Positions 39,675 through 51,828 of a stretch of 64,000 nucleotides of DNA are shown piece by piece. Position numbers and translations under genes: made by a program. Source of the stretch: Rossellomorea marisflavi (GTDB taxonomy: Bacteria; Bacillota; Bacilli; Bacillales; Bacillaceae_B); NCBI RefSeq assembly GCF_022170785.1, contig NZ_CP081870.1, positions 3,460,001-3,524,000 of the forward strand, read 5' to 3'. Positions within the stretch are counted from its first letter, which is position 1. Every line of letters starts with the position of its first letter. The notes under the pieces were generated by a model. That model ran no database searches. It saw only the letters and a list, made by a program, of their open reading frames with translations, and was not told where the DNA came from.

Positions 39675-39778
39675 CAAAAAATCCTCCCACGATTTCTGGA
39701 AGGATTAGCCGCAAACTACCATACACAAATAAGCCCGTTGGAAATGGGACCTATGGGAAAAATGGGCAGACTAATCCT
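39675..39778 (-). promoter_or_regulatory. vmlR attenuator (terminator / antiterminator)
   Basis: A terminator hairpin with arms AATCCTCCCA (39680-39689) and TGGAAGGATT (39697-39706), followed on the minus strand by T6, ends about 30 bases before vmlR. The segment AGGATTAG (39701-39708) of this terminator can instead pair with CTAATCCT (39771-39778), which would form an antiterminator around an internal GCCC/GGGC hairpin. This mutually exclusive pairing is typical of antibiotic-induced attenuation. Confidence 0.82.
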
Positions 39779-39814
39779 ACTAAATATCATTCGAAATTTA
39801 TTCCATTTCAAATT

Positions 39815-39853
39815 CTACCTACCAAGATTAGTTATCCATCGTTCACCCATCAT
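39815..39853 (-). CDS. vmlR leader peptide (12 residues)
   Basis: A short frame in the leader RNA encodes MMGERWITNLGR, with AAGGGAAAGGG just upstream of its ATG pair. It ends 37 bases before the antiterminator strand. A ribosome stalled on it by an antibiotic could shift the RNA towards the antiterminator. That is inference from position and from how other resistance leaders work. Confidence 0.6.
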   Translation of the reverse strand: MMGERWITNLGR

Positions 39854-39876
39854 CCCTTTCCCTTAACATTAACCTA

Positions 39877-41300: not shown

Positions 41301-41349
41301 AAAAAGGGACGGCTCCGATACTTCCTAATGGAAGAACCCGAGCCGTCCC
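41301..41349 (-). terminator. terminator of the 41-52 kb operon
   Basis: Arms GGGACGGCTC and GAGCCGTCCC with a 22-base inner hairpin, followed by T5 on the minus strand. Confidence 0.88.
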
Positions 41350-41355
41350 GTTGTA

Positions 41356-44217
41356 TCATTCGATTGTTCGATCTTCTGTCGGGACAAGGATATCTCCTTT
41401 TGTCCCTTTTTTCAATAGAAGGTGAAGAATGGTTTTTGATAGTTTGCTTGGATGATAGGGTTTCATCAGGTAGTCGCTTGCCCCTAGGGTCAACCCCTTT
41501 TCTTTCTCATCAAGGGCGGAGGAGATGATGATCGGTATGCCCGTCAGGCTCTCTTCCTTCTTGATCTCCTCAAGCACATCCCATCCATTCAGTTTACCCC
41601 CAAGCATGATATCCAGGACAATGGCATCGGGTTGCGTCCGCTTCAGACGCTCGATGGCACTTGAGCCATTCGTCGTGTGATCCACCTGGAAGCCGCTCTC
41701 GGAAAGCTCTGTGGCAAGAAGGGATGCAAGGCTCATATCGTCTTCAATCACAAGGATGTTGTGGCCGTTCCCCTGTTCTTCCTCCTTGAACGTATCAAGG
41801 GTGATGACCGGGAGGGTGACCGTGAATGTGCTTCCTTTTCCGAGTTCGGACGACACGGTCACAGATCCGCCGTGGGCCTCGATGATTTCCTTGACGATGG
41901 TAAGGCCGAGGCCCGTGCCTCCGATCTTCCGCCGGTCTGAATTGTCAATCCGGTAGAATTTCGTGAAGAGCTTACCGATCGCCTCTTCCGGGATGCCCAA
42001 CCCTTCATCGCGGATCTCGATGGAGATCCGGTCTTCTTTTTCCTTCATGAGGATCGTGACGTCCCCTCCATCCGGTGAGTATTTCACCGCATTGCTGATG
42101 AGGTTTGTGAACGCCTGCGTAAGTTTATCCCCGTCACCGAGGACGATGGTGCAATCCGTTTCCCTTCCGATCGTGAAGGTATGATGGGGTGAACTCACCT
42201 TCGTGAGATCCACGATATTCCGGATGATGTCCAGGACGTCTTCATACTTCTTCTCAAAGGTCTGTTTCCCTGATTCCATTCGTTGCACGTCAAGGAAGTC
42301 ATTGATCAGGGAGGTGAGACGCTGCGCTTCCTTGTAGATGGTGTTCAAGTATTTCTTTGTCCTCTCTGGCTTCAGGTCACGGGTGAGCATGAGTTCCGTA
42401 AAGCCAAGAACACTGGCAAGAGGGGTCCGAAGCTCATGGCTGACGGTGCTGACGAACTCCGATTTCATCTGATCCACTTCGTATTCCTTCGTGATGTCAC
42501 GATGGACGAAGATGGTGCCTACATGCTCCTCCTCATGGTACAGGGAGGTAGAATACACCTGGAAGACATCGCTTCCTTCTGTGAGCCTGTAGATCATGCT
42601 GTTCCCCGTTTCCTGATTGCGGATGACATTTTGGTAATAATCCTTGAGTTCATCCCCGTTCTCCACTTGGGTGACGATGCTGCAGCCCCATTTCGAATAT
42701 GGAGCATCCTTCAGGGCTCCCATATCACTTCCAATGATCCTCGCAAACTTCGTATTCACCAGCAGGCTGTCGCCCATGGGGTCAACAAGCTGGATCCCTT
42801 CCTGAAGATTGTTCAGGATATCCTGATTCATATGACGGATCCGTTCGGAATCCTCATAGAGTAGGATGTTCCTCAGGGAAATGGAGATTTGCTTCGCAAA
42901 CCCTTTATACTCCTGCTGTTCCTTGTCTGTGAATCCTTCACCGAAGCGACTGAACACCATGAAGGCCTCCAAATCTCCTTGAGCCGACAGGACCGGGATG
43001 AACAGGTCATAGGAGTACATCGTTTCCTCATGATAGCCTTTTTCAGACGTGACGAGCTCGCGCTTTACACAGAACGGTTCCTTGGTCTCGAATAACCGCT
43101 GATGAAGACCATTCTGGATATGGGCAAGGAACTGGCCGATGGCTTCGTTGGATACGCCGAAGGAGGCGTGGGTATCCTGGTCATCCATGAGGACGATCAT
43201 CCCCCTTGGTGCGCCCATGAGGCTGCACATGCTTTTGACGATGCTTTCCAGTACCTCTTTCTTATCGAGGGAGTTGGATATCCCATTGATGAATTCGTTG
43301 CGCCGTTCAAGCTGTTCGCCTCTGTCGCGCGCAAGATGAAGCAATCGTTCCAATTCCTCCTGCTGGACTTCGAGCTCATCCTGCTGAGCTTGGAGTTCTT
43401 CATTCTGGGAGACAAGATGGTCTTCCTTTTCCTGGACGGTGAAGATCATCTTTTCAAAGGCATTTGAAAGCTGACCGATCTCATCGCGGCGATCCTTATT
43501 GAACGTCCAGTTTTGATACGTACCGGTCTCGGCGATATGCTGGGCAGAGGTTGCCACTTCTTCGAGGGGGTGACCGATCTGCTTGGCAATCGAGCGCATG
43601 ATCCGCATGAGGAGAAGCAGCATGAGCAAGACGAATACCAAGAAGATCGTCTGACTCGTTGCTTCCTTGGCCCGGAGTTCTTCATAAGCTTCATCAGTGG
43701 ACTGCTGGATGTTGTCATTATAGGCATCCAATTTTTCAAGAAATCCTTCTACTCTAGCAGTTCCACCACTGGCAGAGTTATCTTGGACACCCTGTTCATC
43801 GCCATCTTCCACAAGTTTAATTGTCTTGTTAACGATATCTACATAGTAGTCATAAAAATCTTCTACCTCGGAAGCGAAAGCGCGATCGTCTGCAGACTGA
43901 GAAATCTTATTCATTTCTCCTATTGTGACTTTCAACTGCTTCTCGAGGTTTCTAATGTTCTGCTTAAATTCCGGACGTTTAAACGCCACATACCCTCGCC
44001 CCTCAAAGAAGATCCGATTGAACTGCCGGTCAAGCTTCTGGGCGACTTCCTTCCGGTCATCGAGCTTGGCTTTCGTCTCATCGTATTCCACGGAAAGCCT
44101 GTGATCGTACCAGTATAAACAACCTGCTCCTATGAGGAACACGAGGATGAACCCCGTCATGAGGACGATGATCCTCCGTCTCAGACTGGAATGATAGAAA
44201 TCCAGGAGTTTACCCAT
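41356..44217 (-). CDS. hybrid sensor histidine kinase / response regulator
   Basis: 953 residues: TM1 about 14-35, an extracytoplasmic helical sensor (36-189), TM2 about 190-210, HAMP to about 262, a coiled coil (263-310), GAF (about 318-452), PAS (about 462-577), HisKA with His594 in TVSHELRTPL, ATPase (N709, GLGIP, GGTGLGL) and a C-terminal receiver with phospho-acceptor Asp869. It is the last gene of a six-gene operon and overlaps the CheY-like gene by eight bases. With the HPt domain at 51.7 kb it could form a phosphorelay. Confidence 0.93.
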   Translation of the reverse strand: MGKLLDFYHSSLRRRIIVLMTGFILVFLIGAGCLYWYDHRLSVEYDETKAKLDDRKEVAQKLDRQFNRIFFEGRGYVAFKRPEFKQNIRNLEKQLKVTIGEMNKISQSADDRAFASEVEDFYDYYVDIVNKTIKLVEDGDEQGVQDNSASGGTARVEGFLEKLDAYNDNIQQSTDEAYEELRAKEATSQTIFLVFVLLMLLLLMRIMRSIAKQIGHPLEEVATSAQHIAETGTYQNWTFNKDRRDEIGQLSNAFEKMIFTVQEKEDHLVSQNEELQAQQDELEVQQEELERLLHLARDRGEQLERRNEFINGISNSLDKKEVLESIVKSMCSLMGAPRGMIVLMDDQDTHASFGVSNEAIGQFLAHIQNGLHQRLFETKEPFCVKRELVTSEKGYHEETMYSYDLFIPVLSAQGDLEAFMVFSRFGEGFTDKEQQEYKGFAKQISISLRNILLYEDSERIRHMNQDILNNLQEGIQLVDPMGDSLLVNTKFARIIGSDMGALKDAPYSKWGCSIVTQVENGDELKDYYQNVIRNQETGNSMIYRLTEGSDVFQVYSTSLYHEEEHVGTIFVHRDITKEYEVDQMKSEFVSTVSHELRTPLASVLGFTELMLTRDLKPERTKKYLNTIYKEAQRLTSLINDFLDVQRMESGKQTFEKKYEDVLDIIRNIVDLTKVSSPHHTFTIGRETDCTIVLGDGDKLTQAFTNLISNAVKYSPDGGDVTILMKEKEDRISIEIRDEGLGIPEEAIGKLFTKFYRIDNSDRRKIGGTGLGLTIVKEIIEAHGGSVTVSSELGKGSTFTVTLPVITLDTFKEEEQGNGHNILVIEDDMSLASLLATELSESGFQVDHTTNGSSAIERLKRTQPDAIVLDIMLGGKLNGWDVLEEIKKEESLTGIPIIISSALDEKEKGLTLGASDYLMKPYHPSKLSKTILHLLLKKGTKGDILVPTEDRTIE

Positions 44218-44575
44218 TCAGGATGTCTCCGATCTTCTCCATGAGTTCGACGGGACTGTAAGGTTTCGACATGAAGTAGTCAGCACCGGCGGCAAGGACA
44301 AGGTCCTTATCCGCCTGCTGATTCTTCGCCGATACCATCATGATCTTCACATCGCTCTTCCCGTGATGGTTCCGCACCTGATCGATGACCTCGAGACCCG
44401 TATAGGCGGGCATCATATAATCAAGGACAATCAGGTCGTAGTCGGTGCCGAGGATCTGGTCGATGGCTTCCTGGCCATCGGCCGCTTCGTCGATGTCATA
44501 TCCTTCATCTTCCAGGGTGTCGACCATGAGCATGCGCAGCACTTCTTCGTCTTCTGCAATCAAGATCTTCGCCAT
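44210..44575 (-). CDS. CheY-like single-domain response regulator
   Basis: About 121 residues, only a receiver domain: acidic pocket in IAEDEE, phospho-acceptor in IVLDYMMP, Ser/Thr in MMVSAKN and Lys in FMSKPYS. It has no output domain, so it either passes phosphate on or binds a partner. An ATG six bases upstream overlaps the previous stop; GGAGGG is better spaced (eight bases) for the ATG at 44575. It lies between the glycosidase-like gene and the hybrid kinase. Confidence 0.9.
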   Translation of the reverse strand: MAKILIAEDEEVLRMLMVDTLEDEGYDIDEAADGQEAIDQILGTDYDLIVLDYMMPAYTGLEVIDQVRNHHGKSDVKIMMVSAKNQQADKDLVLAAGADYFMSKPYSPVELMEKIGDILNG

Positions 44576-44577
44576 GT

Positions 44578-47500
44578 TCATTTCCCTCCTTTTCCATACG
44601 CTTCTTGCAGAATATAATAGGAATCTTTCAGTCTCTCATGGAAGGTCGGCTCTTCCCACTCTTTCCATGAATACCGATAAAATGCAGCCGGATCCATGAA
44701 GCCGTCTTTCAGAGCAGGATAGGCGTATGATTCCTTCCCATCCGTTTCATAAAGTCCGATATTGATGGAGTCGATTTTCTTCTTGCCTTCAATTCCTGTC
44801 TTCCACATATCCCCCATGGCATCCTTCAGGCTCGGATCCTTGATGTTGAGGAGCTGCCACGGGATGCGGATTTCGGTCATATCGCCTTCTGGGGAAACGC
44901 TGATATCCGTGAGGGAATCATATTTTTCATCCCCGGGGTTCGCCGTACCGAATTGCATCTTGCCTGTTTCATAGGATTCAAACGGCAGGGTCTTGCCCTG
45001 GATCGTTAGCTCCTTATTCAGGGTCAGGCGGATCGGATGATAGACGCCGTTATCCTTCTTGCCCGCATACGGCTCCTTATCGATCATCTCTAAGAGGTTC
45101 CCATAGTGATAGTAGTAGCTGTCATAATAGCTGTCTACGAGGAGCTGGGCGGTCTGATCCCCCTTCATATGAAGGACGAAATCCACTCCTTTGGTCTTCA
45201 CATCATCGACCCCCGGGATGGTCGATTGACCCTGATCCGGAATTGTATCAAAGAGAAGATAAGAGTCTTTATCTTTCACGGAATCTGTATCGACCCTCAC
45301 GTATACATATCGTTCATCACTGGAAACGTAGAGGGCATGCTTACCGTCCTCGAATGCAGGTTCAATGCCCTTGAACGCCCAGTCTTCCCTGCGTCCGTCC
45401 ACATGAAGGACGTCGGTGCGGTTCTTGCCTGGATCAAAGCTCAGGACGCCGAACTGCTGTTCATTCGTCTGGGCATTGGACCAGAACGGACGTCTGTCCG
45501 GGTCATCATAGTCCATCGTGTTCCATGTCCGTTTGAACCATTCATCCTGCCAGGTGAAAACCATTCCGCCGGCCAGATTCTCTTCGATGATGTCTTCAAA
45601 GAGCCTGCGGTCAATCTCACCCTGTTCTTTTTCCGAATGGTGTCCCTGATCGAGTCCGTCGACATTCCGGTGGGTCAGACCGCGGGAGCCCGGCACGCCG
45701 AATTCAGCGACGACGAGCGGCATGGTATGATGCTTCTTCATATCATTCAGATAGCCTGCATAGTTGTTCTTCTCTCCGCGGTGATCGAGATAGTTGATGT
45801 ACTCCGGCTCATAGTTGAGGAAGTCCGGGTAGTACGGATAGATATGATACGATGCGAACAGTCCGGTATGGAGCTGATCCGTTGCTTTGATGACGTTCGG
45901 GTCCACCGATACCATGTCTTCCTTCTCGGAAGGTTCATACGGATGGTCAAGGAGGTCCGTGGTCACCCAGTTGGTGAAGCTGACCGGGCGTTGCCATTGA
46001 TAGGTAGAGGTCTCATACGATACGGCTTCATCCATCATGGTGGAGATCCACACTTCGAATGGCTGGGCCTTTTCCGTATAGAGATACTCACCCTTGAGGT
46101 CCTTCATGCCCTTGTGTTTTTCATTCGTTGCAAGGACCACTTCCGGATCCCACTCGACCCCGAACACCCAACCGAGGACGTAAGGTGAGATATCATGGGT
46201 ATAGCTCCCCGAAGCATGGCCGGGACGATCTGGAATGTCGGCATTCCCATGGATCAGATCGACCGTGCGTTTGATTTCGTCCTGGAATTCTTCGGTGTTT
46301 TCCTTGGCAAAGGCATCCTTCGTCTTCAGGAAGATCTCTTCATTCACCCACACACCATGGAAGAGGTAGAGCGGTTTTTCAGCCATCTGATTGTATTCGT
46401 AGAAAGCTTCATAGAACTCCGGCGGATGGATTGTGTAGACCCGGAGGGAGTTGGCATTCATGGCCCCGATCTGCTTGAACCATCTCAGATACTCTTCTTT
46501 GGTGATGGCCGTCTCGCCGGGGAAATGTCCCGGCTTCGCAATCCCCATATTGACGCCCTTGATGGTGAGATCCTTCCACTTGCCGTCCTGGTTGATCTGG
46601 ACGTAATCGGATCCCACCTTGCCTGCAAGCTTGATGCCATCCTCGACTTCCGCTTTCTGCGCTTTCGCCTTTGGCGCATCTTTCTGGCGATGGATCCTCT
46701 CAAGGATTGTGTCCATCATCGGGGCATACGCCTTCCAGTAGAATGCCGTTTCTTCATCCGGTCCTGAGCGCTCCGTCCACTTCCGCCATGTCGGCAGTCC
46801 CGATGTCTGATACAGATTCGGCACGTCCGGCTGGTCGGCAAAATCACCGCTGAAGTAATAGGTTTCGAATTGGCGGTTCTCCTGGTGGATCACGGCAGGG
46901 AAGGTTGTAGGCAAATTGATCCCCTTCAGCTTATCTTTCCCCTTGTCGGTAAGGGACAGGGAATACTCTGCCAGCACCTCGTCCGGATTGATGGCTTCGA
47001 CGATATCGAACCAGTAGGAATACGCAACCGACAGGTCTTCACCGAATTCTTCTTCCCCCTTCTTCGTGGTGGAGAAGATGGCTCCTTTATCGGTGATGTC
47101 ATCCCCGTTTAGGATCATCAGGCGATCCGACCGGTCGACAAGGACGAAGCCGCCGCCTTTGAACGCATAGTCCTTCCCGTATTGCTCTTTATAGTTGTTG
47201 CGGACCCACTCCGGCACCTCTTCGCTTGTCATATCGGGGAAATAACGCCCGATCCACCCTGACCATTCAAGATTGAAAAGGGAGTAGAACTTACGCCTGA
47301 CCTTTTCATCCGTGGGATCGGCCATGGAGTTGAACTCTGCGATGATGGTCTTCCCTTCATTCAGGGCCATGGTCTTCAAGGAATCGATTTCTTCCTCCTC
47401 GAGCCCTCCATACACCTTGGAGGAGCGGGAACCGGAGACATTTTCCGTATCCAGGTCTTCTTCATACACCCCGTATGTATCGGTGATGTAGACAGCATCA

Positions 47501-47793
47501 TAGCCTTCGGCGGATTCCGGAACAGACGTCGGCTTCCCTTCCTTCGGGTCATAACCGATGTAGTCTGTGTCCTCCCGGTAGCTACTACCGTCGCTCTGCC
47601 TATATTTCTGCTGATTCAATAGCCACATCAGGCCTTTATGCTCCCGGTAGCTTTCATCGGGAACGGTCTTATCCACGATCATCAGGTCAAGATCTTTCTT
47701 CCCCTTCACCTGCCATACCCAGAACGGGGAGGTCAGAAGCAGGACGATTCCCAAGATGAAGATCAGGAAGCCATATCGTTTCACGTTGTTCAT
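44578..47793 (-). CDS. membrane-anchored glycoside-hydrolase-like protein
   Basis: 1071 residues. An N-terminal membrane span (about 8-28) leaves the rest outside the cell. Residues about 30-380 are a domain of unknown type; about 395-790 look like a (beta/alpha)8 glycosidase with GVEWDP near 550 and PLVVAEFGVPGSRG near 690, where the two Glu are candidate acid/base and nucleophile; about 810-1060 resemble a CBM9-like beta-sandwich. I cannot give a GH family. It is coupled by ATGA overlap to the GT2 gene, so it likely trims or processes the glycan. Confidence 0.75.
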   Translation of the reverse strand: MNNVKRYGFLIFILGIVLLLTSPFWVWQVKGKKDLDLMIVDKTVPDESYREHKGLMWLLNQQKYRQSDGSSYREDTDYIGYDPKEGKPTSVPESAEGYDAVYITDTYGVYEEDLDTENVSGSRSSKVYGGLEEEEIDSLKTMALNEGKTIIAEFNSMADPTDEKVRRKFYSLFNLEWSGWIGRYFPDMTSEEVPEWVRNNYKEQYGKDYAFKGGGFVLVDRSDRLMILNGDDITDKGAIFSTTKKGEEEFGEDLSVAYSYWFDIVEAINPDEVLAEYSLSLTDKGKDKLKGINLPTTFPAVIHQENRQFETYYFSGDFADQPDVPNLYQTSGLPTWRKWTERSGPDEETAFYWKAYAPMMDTILERIHRQKDAPKAKAQKAEVEDGIKLAGKVGSDYVQINQDGKWKDLTIKGVNMGIAKPGHFPGETAITKEEYLRWFKQIGAMNANSLRVYTIHPPEFYEAFYEYNQMAEKPLYLFHGVWVNEEIFLKTKDAFAKENTEEFQDEIKRTVDLIHGNADIPDRPGHASGSYTHDISPYVLGWVFGVEWDPEVVLATNEKHKGMKDLKGEYLYTEKAQPFEVWISTMMDEAVSYETSTYQWQRPVSFTNWVTTDLLDHPYEPSEKEDMVSVDPNVIKATDQLHTGLFASYHIYPYYPDFLNYEPEYINYLDHRGEKNNYAGYLNDMKKHHTMPLVVAEFGVPGSRGLTHRNVDGLDQGHHSEKEQGEIDRRLFEDIIEENLAGGMVFTWQDEWFKRTWNTMDYDDPDRRPFWSNAQTNEQQFGVLSFDPGKNRTDVLHVDGRREDWAFKGIEPAFEDGKHALYVSSDERYVYVRVDTDSVKDKDSYLLFDTIPDQGQSTIPGVDDVKTKGVDFVLHMKGDQTAQLLVDSYYDSYYYHYGNLLEMIDKEPYAGKKDNGVYHPIRLTLNKELTIQGKTLPFESYETGKMQFGTANPGDEKYDSLTDISVSPEGDMTEIRIPWQLLNIKDPSLKDAMGDMWKTGIEGKKKIDSINIGLYETDGKESYAYPALKDGFMDPAAFYRYSWKEWEEPTFHERLKDSYYILQEAYGKGGK

Positions 47794-49202
47794 TTGGATA
47801 CTCCTTTTCTCGCCATTTCACCCCAGCCCCGCTTCTTGCGGAGGAAGTCGATGATGCCTTCACAGCGCCAGAGCACGGTCAATGGGCGATACCAGAGGGT
47901 TTCTGTTAGGGAATAGAAGAATAGTTTCGTAATGTCAGATGCCTTCGGATATTTCCGGATCGTCCATTCCTCCAGCAGTACAGCCGACATGGAAAGGATC
48001 GAACCGTAGAAAATCGATAATAAGAATAAGAGGATGGCAAACTCCAGATACACGCCTCCGAACAGCAGCGAAACAATCATGATGAGGTAGCCCGTGAGCT
48101 CAACGACCGGTCCGAGGAACTCGATGATGAGGAAATAGGGCATACTCACCATGCCGATGGAGCCATATTTCGGATTGAACAGAAGTTTTTTATGGATCCA
48201 CAGGCTCTCGAACAGTCCACGGTGCCATCTGCTCCGCTGTCTCCGCAAGTATTTCATGGACTCCGGTGCTTCCGTCCAGCTGACGGGATCCGGAACGTAG
48301 ACGATTTGTTTGTCTGCCTTTTCTTCTTTCACGAATCGATGGAGCCTCACGACGAGTTCCATGTCTTCCCCCACCGTATGGGCATAGCCCCCAGCCCGGA
48401 TGACCCAGCTCTTCGAGAAGACGCCGAAAGCCCCGGATACGATAAGGAGAAGGTTGTGCCGGCTGAGACCGATTCGTCCCATCAAGAACGCCCTTAAATA
48501 TTCAATCACCTGCATGACGACAAGGGGAGAACGGGATAACCCGATCTTGACGATCTCTCCGCTCTCGATGTCACATCCATTGGCGATCCGTATGCTTCCG
48601 CCCGAGGCGATGACGTCCCCGTCAGATTCGATGATCGGCTTCATGACCTTCAGGAAGGCTGAACGCTCTAAGACCGAATCCCCGTCGATGGAGCAGAAAT
48701 ACGGGAAGTTGGACACATTGATACCTGCATTCAGGGCATCGGCCTTCCCTCCGTTTTCTTTATCCACGACAAGGAGGTTCTTATACAGCTTCGATTGATA
48801 GACCGCTTTGACGGGCTGGGTTTCGAGCTGCTGACGGATGACCCATTTGATCTTCACAAGCTGGAACGTCTCGATGAGTTTTTCGAGGGAATCGTCCGTC
48901 GACCCGTCGTTCACGATGATCACTTCGTATTCCGGATACTCAATGCTCAGGAGGGACCGGACCGTTGCCATGATCCCGACGGATTCATTATAAGCAGGCA
49001 CCAGGATCGACACCGGCTTCGTCTGGGAAAGATGAAGGAGTTCTTCATACGGCTCCCAGTCGTCAAGCTGGTACGATTTCCGCAACTGGAACATGGAGAT
49101 CACGAGAAGAATCGTATAAAAAGAAATAACAAGAATCATATATATGAGGACGAACCACCCGATGCCGAGCAGGACGTTTCCCCATGCGTCTGAAATGTTC
49201 AT
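47790..49202 (-). CDS. GT2 family processive-type glycosyltransferase
   Basis: 470 residues: an N-terminal membrane span (about 8-32), a GT-A domain with VNDGSTDDS, the metal-binding SIDGDS, the catalytic GEDMEL and the processivity motif QRSRWHRG, then three to four C-terminal spans. This is the architecture of IcaA/PgaC, hyaluronan and cellulose synthases, which polymerise and export a polysaccharide. There is no PilZ domain. AAAGGGGG precedes the ATG at 49202, which overlaps the HEAT gene stop. The polymer cannot be named. Confidence 0.9.
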   Translation of the reverse strand: MNISDAWGNVLLGIGWFVLIYMILVISFYTILLVISMFQLRKSYQLDDWEPYEELLHLSQTKPVSILVPAYNESVGIMATVRSLLSIEYPEYEVIIVNDGSTDDSLEKLIETFQLVKIKWVIRQQLETQPVKAVYQSKLYKNLLVVDKENGGKADALNAGINVSNFPYFCSIDGDSVLERSAFLKVMKPIIESDGDVIASGGSIRIANGCDIESGEIVKIGLSRSPLVVMQVIEYLRAFLMGRIGLSRHNLLLIVSGAFGVFSKSWVIRAGGYAHTVGEDMELVVRLHRFVKEEKADKQIVYVPDPVSWTEAPESMKYLRRQRSRWHRGLFESLWIHKKLLFNPKYGSIGMVSMPYFLIIEFLGPVVELTGYLIMIVSLLFGGVYLEFAILLFLLSIFYGSILSMSAVLLEEWTIRKYPKASDITKLFFYSLTETLWYRPLTVLWRCEGIIDFLRKKRGWGEMARKGVSK

Positions 49203-50239
49203 GTGATACGCCCCCTTTCCAACCATTGTTCCGCCATATCCCTGGCATACAGGTCTTCTTCCGATATGGCAATCTCCCTCAGGACCTCCTGCCCGCGCTC
49301 AAGACGCATGATGGCCTGAGCGGCCTGTGACCGCACATAGAAGGAAGCATCCCTCATCAAGCTGATGAGAAGGCCAGTCAATTCAGGATTACGCACGTAC
49401 TCACACACCTTGATGGCCATGAGCCGTTCCTGCCAGGACTCTGCCTTCAGATGATCGGCGAGTGTGTCTGCCGGAAGATAATGCTCCATGGCCACGATCG
49501 CTTTCAGGGCACGAATCCGGATTTCAGATGATGCCAAGCCTAGTTTATCCTCCAAAAACCCTGCATAGCGGGGATTTCGCCTCAGGCCGATGCTGTCAAT
49601 GAGGGAATGGTGCATAACATCCGGTAATTCCCCAGCAGCCTCCATGAGCCCCTCAAAGTCCGTAATGTCGAGGGCCTGAAAGAGGAGGCTGTACTCAAAT
49701 TCCGTGAATACATGCTTTGGATGCATGAGGGCTTTCATGACGTCAGGGGATCCGTTTTTGATGTCGATCTTGAGGATTTGGATTTCTTCCTGTTTTGTCA
49801 GTCTGCGTGATTGATAGACCCTGTCGAGTTCGGATTTCATGGTACGCATCCCGAAGTCCTCGACCCAGTACAGGCCGTTCATCCGCATGCTCCACCGCCG
49901 GTGACGGAGATGCTTCTTGATCTCCCCGTCAAAATGGTCCTCGGCAAAGAGACGGATCCTCATAAGGATATCTTCGCTTGCGAATGTTTGGGAGAAACCA
50001 GCCATCAGCTCGATCAATGCCCTGACTTGAAGGGGATCCCTGCCCACTTCAACTTCCTCCACTCCTTCCCTGAGGAAATGGAAGATGGGAAGCTGGTATT
50101 CCTCTTTATATGCCTCTATGACATCACGTTTCTTCGTTTCTCTTGTTTTTTTCATAATGAGATAAAGAAAGATCGAGAATAAGATGATCAGGAAAATCCC
50201 GAGCATCACGACAAAAAACAACAGCTCATCTTTGAACAA
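49199..50239 (-). CDS. membrane-anchored HEAT-repeat protein
   Basis: 346 residues: one N-terminal span (about 7-28), a basic stretch (KKTRETKKRD), then helical repeats of the HEAT type, clearest at the C-terminus (SSEIRIRALKAIVAM, WQERLMAIKVCEYV, SFYVRSQAAQAIMRL). HEAT arrays serve as protein-binding scaffolds. The gene sits between the GGDEF gene and the glycosyltransferase with gaps of a few bases, so it probably links signalling to the synthase. No direct counterpart is known to me. Confidence 0.82.
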   Translation of the reverse strand: MFKDELLFFVVMLGIFLIILFSIFLYLIMKKTRETKKRDVIEAYKEEYQLPIFHFLREGVEEVEVGRDPLQVRALIELMAGFSQTFASEDILMRIRLFAEDHFDGEIKKHLRHRRWSMRMNGLYWVEDFGMRTMKSELDRVYQSRRLTKQEEIQILKIDIKNGSPDVMKALMHPKHVFTEFEYSLLFQALDITDFEGLMEAAGELPDVMHHSLIDSIGLRRNPRYAGFLEDKLGLASSEIRIRALKAIVAMEHYLPADTLADHLKAESWQERLMAIKVCEYVRNPELTGLLISLMRDASFYVRSQAAQAIMRLERGQEVLREIAISEEDLYARDMAEQWLERGRIT

Positions 50240-50244
50240 TGGCC

Positions 50245-51828
50245 TTACCTCATTCTCTTCAGTATTTGATTCAAGCGCGCCTCGAGCTCAAGAAGCTTGA
50301 AGGGCTTGGTGATGTAATCATCTGCTCCAAGCTGCAGGGATCTCGAGATATCCCGTTCGCTCCTTCTCGAAGTCAGCATGATCACTTTGTAGCGATCGGA
50401 ATCCTGACGTCGTCGAAGATGTTCCAATACCTCCAGCCCATCCATCTTCGGCATCACCCCATCAAGGACGACAAGGGTCTGTTCACTGCCATGCCATTCA
50501 TCATAGAGGAAGGATTCCCCGTTATCGAACGTGTTTACGTCGTAACGCACGCCCGGCTGTTGTGGGAGCTTCGCCACGATGTCACTCATCACGGTCCGGA
50601 TGATGGGATCATCATCTACGATGGCCACCTTAAGGATTTTCTCATGAGAAGGGTCGAGCTTCAGGACTTCGGATCTCACCCGATTCCTGCCCCCTTCCTT
50701 CGCTTCGTACAGAGCCGTATCCGCAAGACCAAGCCAGTGCTCGAACGGTCGGCCCGGATCGGCGATCTCCGCCACTCCCGCTGAAAATGAACAGCTGAAT
50801 GCTTCTCCGGCAAAGAAGGTGTGAAGGCTGAAGTCCTCGCGGAGGACATTCAATCTGGCCACTGCTTCATGGAGGGAGGTGCCGTGAAACAGGATGACGA
50901 ACTCTTCTCCACCGTAGCGGAAGATGATGTCCTGCGCCCCAGTCTTCTGTTTAAGGTATCCGGCAAATTCCCTCAGCACTTCATCCCCGATCAGATGGCC
51001 ATATGTATCATTCACCTTCTTGAAGTGATCGATATCCAGGATCGCCACACATAGCTGACGGTCTCCCTGATCCTTCAGTCTGGAATACGCTTGTTGAAGA
51101 TATTTCCGGTTATACACATGGGTAAGCTCATCGATGAGGACGAGGGATTCGAGGTGCTTCTTCCGTTGAAGCTGGCGGTCGACCCTGACAAGGAATTCAT
51201 CCATGTCCACCGGCTTTGCCATGAAATCATCGGCCCCTACCTTATAAGCCTTGACCCTGACCTCCTTGCTCCTATCGGAACTCATCATCACGGCTGGAAC
51301 ATAGTGGCTCTTCAAGTTCTGCTTGAAGGAATCAAGCTCTTCATCATCCGCCATATCCACATTGAGGATCGCGCAGTCAGGACGGACATCATAGTACAGA
51401 CCAATCGCCTTTTCCGTACTGACGACAGGCACCACATGCCACCCTTCTGCCTCCCCCTTCTCCTTTGCTTCCATCAGAAAATGGGTATCCGTATCCATGA
51501 TGAGGACAACCGGGCCGTCTCCCCTGCGCTCGTATTTCCTGGAGAAATCGGGGATTTCTCCTTCCACATGAAGATAGCAGGCTTCAATGATGTCGAAGAG
51601 TTCATCCCGTATTACATTCATACTCCAGATGCGTGAATCTTTCTCCGGGAGCCCATCCATGATGGTACTTGCCTTCTTACCTATTGCATCCAAGCCCAAA
51701 ACCGATGCAGACCCTGCGAGGGAGTGGATGAAACGGTACACCTCCTCATGGGGGATTTTCTCTGCCGCTTCCCATTCCGATAGTTTCTTGCGAATATTTT
51801 CAAAGAAATGCTTTGTATACTTATCCAT
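50245..51828 (-). CDS. HPt-REC-GGDEF-REC signalling protein
   Basis: 527 residues: an HPt domain (His35 in FIHSLAGSA), a receiver (about 105-222) whose acceptor position is Asn156 (AILNVDM) and so probably cannot be phosphorylated, a GGDEF domain with the active form GGEEF (306-310) but no RxxD inhibitory site, and a C-terminal receiver with Asp456 (VVLDGVMP). It should make c-di-GMP under phosphorelay control. It is the first gene of the operon. AAAGGAAG precedes the ATG. Confidence 0.92.
   Translation of the reverse strand: MDKYTKHFFENIRKKLSEWEAAEKIPHEEVYRFIHSLAGSASVLGLDAIGKKASTIMDGLPEKDSRIWSMNVIRDELFDIIEACYLHVEGEIPDFSRKYERRGDGPVVLIMDTDTHFLMEAKEKGEAEGWHVVPVVSTEKAIGLYYDVRPDCAILNVDMADDEELDSFKQNLKSHYVPAVMMSSDRSKEVRVKAYKVGADDFMAKPVDMDEFLVRVDRQLQRKKHLESLVLIDELTHVYNRKYLQQAYSRLKDQGDRQLCVAILDIDHFKKVNDTYGHLIGDEVLREFAGYLKQKTGAQDIIFRYGGEEFVILFHGTSLHEAVARLNVLREDFSLHTFFAGEAFSCSFSAGVAEIADPGRPFEHWLGLADTALYEAKEGGRNRVRSEVLKLDPSHEKILKVAIVDDDPIIRTVMSDIVAKLPQQPGVRYDVNTFDNGESFLYDEWHGSEQTLVVLDGVMPKMDGLEVLEHLRRRQDSDRYKVIMLTSRRSERDISRSLQLGADDYITKPFKLLELEARLNQILKRMR

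Follow-up and report, generated by a model that had tools for sequence, protein, structure and literature searches.

Six closely packed open reading frames (ORFs) on the minus strand of the Rossellomorea marisflavi genome probably belong to a synthase-dependent polysaccharide system that is widespread in Bacilli, in which a HEAT-repeat adaptor would couple an exchangeable receiver switch to a processive glycosyltransferase of family 2 (GT2). The operon occupies positions 51828-41356 of the stretch analyzed in this study (assembly GCF_022170785.1, contig NZ_CP081870.1, positions 3,460,001-3,524,000 of the forward strand), which is 64,000 nt long and is referred to as the window. In the direction of transcription, its minus-strand genes encode a switch protein with the domain order HPt-REC1-GGDEF-REC2 (51828-50245; 527 amino acids, aa), a membrane-anchored HEAT-repeat protein with a TTG start (50239-49199; 346 aa), the GT2 synthase (49226-47790; 478 aa), a membrane-tethered, probably extracellular glycosidase-like protein of two modules (47793-44578; 1071 aa), a CheY-like stand-alone receiver (44581-44210; 123 aa), and a hybrid histidine kinase (44217-41356; 953 aa). 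The six proteins were scanned with Pfam and NCBIfam at E 0.01, and Pfam recognized HEAT_2, GT2, and REC in the second, third, and fifth of these proteins, respectively.

Recurrence and Constant Core of the Gene Set

The 1071-aa protein was found at 505 places in named genomes, and locus contents were read in the best 80 of these 505. All six genes are present in 28 of the 80 loci; the window's gene order, on one strand and with gaps of at most 61 bases, is kept in 25 of the 28, and three have the permuted order glycosidase-like protein, stand-alone receiver, hybrid kinase, switch, HEAT, and GT2 (a Clostridiaceae metagenome-assembled genome, Alkalibacterium, and Streptohalobacillus). Across these recurring six-gene loci the 1071-aa protein shares 44-97% identity, and the joint recurrence of the six genes exceeds chance; a preliminary description of this DNA had suggested looking for such conservation.

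A search of the R. marisflavi genome for a second copy of the 1071-aa protein found none. This protein is encoded in 26 of 36 genomes of the same GTDB family (here one genus); at the level of the order, 96 of 249 genomes have it, and it occurs in 42 of 105 genera. With the window's own genome counted each time, a HEAT protein was detected in 97 of the 249 genomes sampled in the order, in 47 of 250 from the class, and in 15 of 299 from the phylum. Across the 249 genomes of the order, both proteins occur in 91, the 1071-aa protein alone in 5, HEAT alone in 6, and neither in 147 (Fisher p 1e-53, uncorrected for relatedness). Four of the five genomes with the 1071-aa protein alone hold a sub-threshold HEAT gene of 58-96 bits (L082, L099, L100, and L161), the fifth being G109.

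Neighboring genes were counted in loci L002-L181, with the window (L001) left out; these loci had been fetched via matches to the 1071-aa protein or to HEAT and hence are no random sample. HEAT proteins shorter than 230 aa or below 50 bits were dropped, which removed L004 with its partial HEAT, and thinning at 97% identity reduced 149 HEAT genes to 142. A GT2 gene directly follows HEAT in 138 of these 142 loci, and a receiver-bearing gene lies directly upstream of HEAT in 109. The hybrid kinase, the stand-alone receiver, HPt, and GGDEF come and go among loci, and among the best 80 of 505 the kinase and the stand-alone receiver are missing from many. The 1071-aa protein is a fusion of two modules, N and C, which also exist as separate genes beside HEAT-GT2. 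In the fetched stretches of the 138 HEAT-GT2 loci both modules are present in 107, only C in 15, only N in 11, and neither in 5; L088 and L089 hold the whole set with module N alone, and L177 and L178 hold switch, HEAT, GT2, receiver, and kinase with neither module. The constant core of the system is the HEAT-GT2 pair, with exchangeable signaling genes and no fixed six-gene unit. The preliminary description had proposed one linked unit of phosphorelay, GGDEF protein, and synthase, which is indeed coherent and conserved but is not fixed at six genes.

On plasmid pRadio2 of Deinococcus radiophilus (L183, 8488-13522), genes for a TPR/C-module protein, a HEAT repeat protein, and a glycosyltransferase are adjacent, with no signaling genes beside them. 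Module C, with 33.7% identity, lies here inside a protein annotated as TPR, and this cluster extends the core to another phylum. A different arrangement is seen in Planococcus and its relatives (L041, L059, L062, L064, L071, L079, and L080), in which GT2-HEAT is convergent to the 1071-aa gene and no receiver gene adjoins HEAT; the next gene encodes a GDSL-type esterase in L062 and has no Pfam match in L041.

Domain States of the Switch Protein

In the switch protein of the window, Pfam reported REC in two stretches and GGDEF at 132.6 bits (cut-off 23.8), and HPt remained sub-threshold (20.5 bits against a cut-off of 24.6). The protein carries HPt His35, Asn156 at the phosphoacceptor place of REC1, and the phospho-Asp D456 in REC2 (residues 401-519 in Pfam; 50272-50628, minus strand). 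Its GGEEF motif is intact at residues 306-310, and the place of the I-site (RxxD) reads GAQD (297-300). By motif and domain score this GGDEF domain looks like an active diguanylate cyclase, and with GGEEF intact and the I-site lost, the window's version of the system looks phosphorelay-driven. Another R. marisflavi locus (L002) shares the REC1 Asn and the GAQD, whereas 11 of the 14 switch rows displayed have Asp at the REC1 phosphoacceptor place. Among 67 full-length switches, RxxD is kept in 56 and the HPt His in 65, the window's among the latter. REC2 is the most constant part of the protein encoded upstream of HEAT.

Among the 109 switches, GG[DE]E[FIY] is kept in 61, the region is present without the motif in 41, and seven consist of a receiver only. 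The I-site (RxxD/E) is kept in 55 of the 61 motif-bearing and 29 of the 41 motif-less switches; the combination expected of an I-site receptor of cyclic di-GMP (c-di-GMP), with the GGDEF motif lost and RxxD kept, is thus found in 29 of 41 motif-less relatives and not in the window protein. All 16 switches that have a GGDEF region and Asn in place of the phospho-Asp keep RxxD. In these 16 short proteins, a class chosen as motif-less with Asn at the phospho place and the I-site kept, the R and D of the I-site are among eight invariant residues of a 148-column N-terminal part with a mean identity of 43% (28-87%). The I-site was present in every motif-less protein with Asn and absent from the three mid-length ones with Glu, Thr, or Ser at that place. 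The REC2 phospho-Asp is present in 66 of 66 switches with HPt and in 20 of 43 without it. On a GT2 tree of 138 rows, which contains long branches that meet, the motif-less state requires 16 changes (gains or losses), and well-supported branches force 13 of them, so the state appears to have switched many times.

Because the I-site is kept after loss of the cyclase motif, the motif-less, I-site-keeping GGDEF-REC switches of the relatives are more likely c-di-GMP receptors than HEAT is, as judged from their sequences. The HEAT protein, which the preliminary description had put forward as carrier of the c-di-GMP signal, is demoted in that role since a better candidate exists. Five loci (L040, L056, L058, L076, and L122) have, upstream of a short degenerate switch, a further GGDEF gene coding for about 300-315 aa, which may have taken over the cyclase role; of the five, L056 alone has the strict GGDEF/GGEEF string. 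In L124 (14164-15536), a degenerate GGDEF (328 aa) and a receiver (154 aa) are encoded in two overlapping frames, which looks like a split switch gene.

Hybrid Kinase and Phosphorelay

The hybrid kinase contains HAMP, GAF, HisKA, HATPase, and REC domains in Pfam and two transmembrane stretches by hydropathy. Earlier domain calls for the switch, HEAT, GT2, the CheY-like protein, and the GAF domain of the kinase agree with Pfam (HPt being sub-threshold); a PAS domain also assigned to the kinase was not reported by Pfam at E 0.01. A hybrid kinase requires an HPt and a terminal receiver. By sequence, the operon contains the full set of a multistep phosphorelay, namely a HisKA-HATPase-REC kinase, the HPt His, and a terminal receiver with D456, and both HPt and terminal receiver reside on the protein encoded next to HEAT.

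HEAT Protein, Synthase, and Polymer

The HEAT protein begins with a hydrophobic stretch (residues 1-33) followed by KKTRETKKR, and this positive stretch after the anchor suggests that the HEAT repeats are probably cytoplasmic. Its structural model is all helical with a mean predicted local distance difference test (pLDDT) score of 96.1, and alphaRep and other HEAT folds are the best structural matches; NCBIfam gave no match at E 0.01. The protein looks like an adaptor.

In the GT2 protein, D107, D181xD183, E287D288, and QxxRW (330-334: Q330, R333, and W334) are invariant in 43 of 43 rows, and hydrophobic stretches (14-49, 357-375, and 377-419) lie on both sides of the catalytic domain. By these catalytic residues and predicted membrane helices, it qualifies as a processive polysaccharide synthase. 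The earlier statement that it carries QxxRW and lacks PilZ agrees with these rows and with Pfam, which matched PilZ in none of the six proteins at E 0.01. The best NCBIfam model was PgaC_IcaA (TIGR03937), a partial match of 119 bits. Membership in the poly-N-acetylglucosamine (PNAG) synthases PgaC/IcaA was rejected at this score, far under the cut-off of 422.3, and so was membership in the BcsA cellulose synthases (CelA, 38.8 bits against a cut-off of 699.1; no PilZ). Among solved structures, chondroitin and hyaluronan synthases match, the latter over residues 17-359 with E 4.9e-10.

A sister clade (L099, L100, L101, L159, L160, L161, L169, and L170, and L172 in part) has genes for module C, HEAT, GT2, a receiver protein, UDP-glucose dehydrogenase, and GlmS in a row. 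In the 181 loci scanned, a UDP-glucose dehydrogenase gene follows the sister-clade core in nine, and a GlmS gene is present in eight of these. Because these two genes follow the synthase, the sister-clade operon points to a polymer containing a uronate and an amino sugar. Two genomes (G070 and G167) contain the sister-clade cluster plus a window-type system (L120 and L131).

Glycosidase-Like Protein

The 1071-aa protein had no match in Pfam or NCBIfam at E 0.01, phmmer returned two meaningless matches (E 0.64 and 0.68), and its profile matched no solved chain at E 1. Module N covers about residues 1-367 (46693-47793, minus strand) and module C about residues 380-1071 (44578-46656, minus strand); as separate genes they encode about 370 and 720 aa, respectively. 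Pfam gave no match for three stand-alone N modules or for one of two stand-alone C modules, and for the other C module it listed GH113 and GH72 under their cut-offs (E 0.016-0.017). A single N-terminal anchor, identified by hydropathy, is preceded by positive residues, which suggests that the body of the protein lies outside the membrane.

The structural model (mean pLDDT 87.9) suggests that module C is a clan-A-like glycosidase barrel followed by a beta-rich C-terminal domain, in line with the earlier description of a glycosidase-like, membrane-anchored protein. Foldseek ranked GH157 chains best and then GH2 enzymes, and the match lists were filled by the barrel and not by module N. In VIA-align, the best match to the barrel was LaGH157 (9g4n_A; Z 29.6, root-mean-square deviation 2.6 A over 311 residues, 14% identity with no sequence-level match). 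The other two LaGH157 entries (Z 26.6 and 26.2) are level with a GH2 enzyme at 26.0, so these matches single out no one family for the barrel; its likeness to clan-A-type enzymes of GH157, GH2, and GH5 makes a clan-A-like fold a safe prediction. E547, E697, and a WQDE motif (748-751) are invariant in 55 of 55 rows, and the two glutamates, placed by motif and order, are the predicted catalytic residues of the active site. LaGH157 is listed with laminari-oligosaccharides, and activity of the 1071-aa protein on beta-1,3-glucan would be a guess from this analogy.

Genomic Setting of the Operon

The six ORFs are joined by one gap of 5 bases and then overlaps of 28, 4, 4, and 8 bases, and the operon ends at a strong hairpin. 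A putative intrinsic terminator (41301-41349, minus strand) directly follows the last stop codon, with a perfect 10-bp stem in which 41349-41340 pairs with 41315-41306 before TTTTT; it was found by eye and was not listed by a simple hairpin scan limited to loops of 3-8 bases. These ORF positions and the stem agree with the preliminary description, which had six genes in one direction, overlapping or at most 5 bases apart, ending at a strong terminator. Upstream of the operon lie same-strand genes that we take to be crh, whiA, yvcK, and rapZ from their sequences. At Rfam gathering scores, the window contains no c-di-GMP riboswitch, and the only matches are a tRNA and the Bacillus small RNA ncr1575 (39675-39871, minus strand; 118.9 bits, gathering 60), which lies outside the operon on its downstream side.

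Proposed Mechanism and Alternative Explanations

In the mechanism proposed here, GT2 would polymerize and export a glycan, and the extracellular two-module protein, a putative hydrolase, would receive, trim, or remodel it. HEAT would be a membrane-anchored cytoplasmic adaptor in contact with GT2, and the protein encoded upstream of HEAT would be the switch, acting on HEAT through its C-terminal REC2. In the window, phosphoryl groups would pass in four steps from the hybrid kinase His to the kinase REC Asp, HPt His35, and REC2 D456 (perhaps also to the stand-alone receiver), and control would run from kinase to HPt, REC2, HEAT, and GT2; c-di-GMP from the seemingly active GGDEF would be a second output. 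In lineages with the short switch, a degenerate GGDEF that keeps the I-site, fused to a receiver without phosphoacceptor, would bind c-di-GMP as a receptor, and the signal would pass from this GGDEF through the receiver to HEAT and GT2. A broader version is offered tentatively, as a possibility short of probable: HEAT on GT2 may read a receiver that has been repeatedly re-wired between phosphorelay and c-di-GMP input, from cyclase to receptor in the same slot, with a HEAT-GT2 core beyond Bacilli and different polymers by clade, one of them probably uronate-containing.

Several observations weigh against coupling of a receiver switch to GT2 through HEAT. The window itself has Asn156 in REC1 and GAQD at the I-site, and its operon holds no sugar-nucleotide gene. 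The I-site is missing from 12 of the 41 motif-less proteins, and in at least one of the 41 (L012) the region in question is a second receiver and not a GGDEF relic. In the GT2-tree set, 52 of 58 active switches have the I-site, compared with 29 of 41 motif-less ones, a lean opposite to a pure receptor story. On independent pairs of the GT2 tree, neither the link of HPt with the phospho-Asp (seven pairs, about two in the same direction and none opposite) nor that of active cyclase with I-site is significant. A receiver gene directly upstream of HEAT is absent from 32 of the 138 HEAT-GT2 loci, so the switch is dispensable, at least in cis. The preliminary description had held that GT2 and glycosidase-like genes found routinely without the signaling genes would speak against a linked system, and in part this is what was found, in these 32 loci and in 9 of the 80 named loci (best 80 of 505), where neither HEAT nor GT2 accompanies the glycosidase-like gene in the fetched stretch; yet HEAT is present elsewhere in the genome in all 24 genomes picked for a 1071-aa gene or module standing apart from HEAT/GT2.

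The loci without an upstream receiver, the absence of kinase and stand-alone receiver from many loci, and a GGDEF in the window that looks active with its I-site missing would also suit signaling genes whose output is transcription or something else and whose link to HEAT-GT2 is one of co-inheritance only, with c-di-GMP acting globally and no contact between switch and synthase. We consider this unlikely. In Pfam, none of the six proteins shows an output domain that binds DNA; a receiver keeps its place beside HEAT in 109 of 142 loci, whereas HPt, GGDEF, the kinase, and the stand-alone receiver vary; and survival of the I-site where the cyclase motif is gone suggests a local receptor. The product of GT2 might instead be a cell-wall- or S-layer-linked glycan or glycoconjugate, attached or remodeled by the two-module protein as a transglycosylase. 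Clan-A includes transglycosylases, the barrel resembles retaining enzymes of this clan, the protein is tethered by its N-terminal helix, and a relative of module C has a weak glucanosyltransferase match (E 0.017, 14.8 bits, cut-off 25.9). This alternative seems quite unlikely to us given that GT2 resembles processive, secreting synthases in its QxxRW motif and its membrane layout and that no lipid-carrier or ligase gene was found within the operon by Pfam. An unusual PNAG system, in which GT2 would be a PgaC/IcaA-type synthase with new partners, is highly improbable: PgaC_IcaA is the best NCBIfam model, but its partial match falls far under the cut-off, Pfam and NCBIfam revealed neither a deacetylase nor a PgaD/IcaD-like gene in the operon, and the UDP-glucose dehydrogenase and GlmS genes of the sister clade suit a uronate-containing polymer.

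Comparison With Described Systems

Coupling of HEAT, receiver switch, and GT2, the reading preferred here, shares parts with several described systems, which are compared on the basis of excerpts from the cited papers. In PssE, YdaK, PelD, and BcsE, a degenerate GGDEF domain binds c-di-GMP through RxxD, and each of these proteins switches an exopolysaccharide synthase (PMC4125290, PMC5422440, PMC7112168, PMC7439463). The Listeria Pss system (pssA-E) is a Gram-positive GT2 operon in which the receptor PssE, with DKDDA for GGDEF and RxxD kept, switches the synthase (PMC4125290). PssE resembles the 16 short switches among the relatives of the window's system in having lost GGDEF and kept RxxD, whereas the GGDEF of the window is intact and its I-site absent; the Pss excerpt mentions neither a HEAT adaptor nor a receiver switch, a phosphorelay, or a two-module glycosidase (PMC4125290). 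In Bacillus subtilis ydaJ-N, the degenerate GGDEF receptor YdaK needs its I-site, and putative glycosyltransferases would make an unknown exopolysaccharide (PMC5422440). An operon-encoded degenerate GGDEF receptor beside glycosyltransferases is the likeness here; YdaK differs in being transmembrane and without a receiver, and the excerpt mentions no HEAT protein, a distinction that is drawn from the published description only.

In the Bacillus cereus Pel system (pelDEADAFG), PelD binds c-di-GMP via a degenerate GGDEF and is needed for biofilm (PMC7112168). Its gene content is different; the glycosyltransferase of the window carries QxxRW and belongs to GT2, and a comparison of the six proteins with the family models of Pfam and NCBIfam yielded no match to Pel. 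In the enterobacterial cellulose system, BcsE, a tandem of degenerate receiver and GGDEF domains, uses RxxD to bind c-di-GMP and attaches to a partner protein of the synthase machinery (PMC7439463). The 16 short switches are tandems of degenerate GGDEF and receiver with the same losses, but the domain order is reversed in BcsE, which serves the PilZ synthase BcsA via BcsRQ, with no HEAT adaptor or phosphorelay in the excerpt. Escherichia coli NfrB, also a GT2 synthase, is controlled locally by c-di-GMP through a partner cyclase (PMC8669469), a likeness to the system described here; its receptor is an MshEN domain fused to the glycosyltransferase, and the excerpt contains no HEAT, receiver, or phosphorelay genes. 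The structural match of GT2 to hyaluronan synthase is paralleled in the sister clade, where UDP-glucose dehydrogenase and GlmS would supply UDP-glucuronic acid and amino sugar, whereas the operon of the window has neither gene. To our knowledge, hyaluronan systems have no HEAT or receiver partners.

We found no description of the HEAT-GT2 pair or of the six-gene set in the open-access literature, where absence is not the same as absence from print; an Anoxybacillus genome paper counts c-di-GMP proteins, and its text contains neither "HEAT" nor "glycosyltransferase" (PMC2614493). The preliminary description had stated that the combination matches no system known in Bacillus, which holds for the cellulose, PNAG, and Pel models and for the open-access literature, although the host is Rossellomorea and not strictly Bacillus. 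The parts are of known kinds; the combination of receiver switch, HEAT adaptor, GT2, and two-module protein, and the proposed repeated change from cyclase to receptor in one slot, are not described in the open-access literature searched.

Biological Significance

Gram-positive c-di-GMP receptors and the targets of receivers in hybrid phosphorelays are mostly unknown. If the proposed mechanism is true, a cyclase would have become a receptor several times within one gene slot, and a single synthase would take its input interchangeably from phosphorelay or c-di-GMP. With HEAT in 97 of the 249 genomes of the order, and yet no Pfam or NCBIfam name for the largest protein of the system, soil, marine, and food Bacilli may produce an abundant matrix polymer that has so far escaped description.

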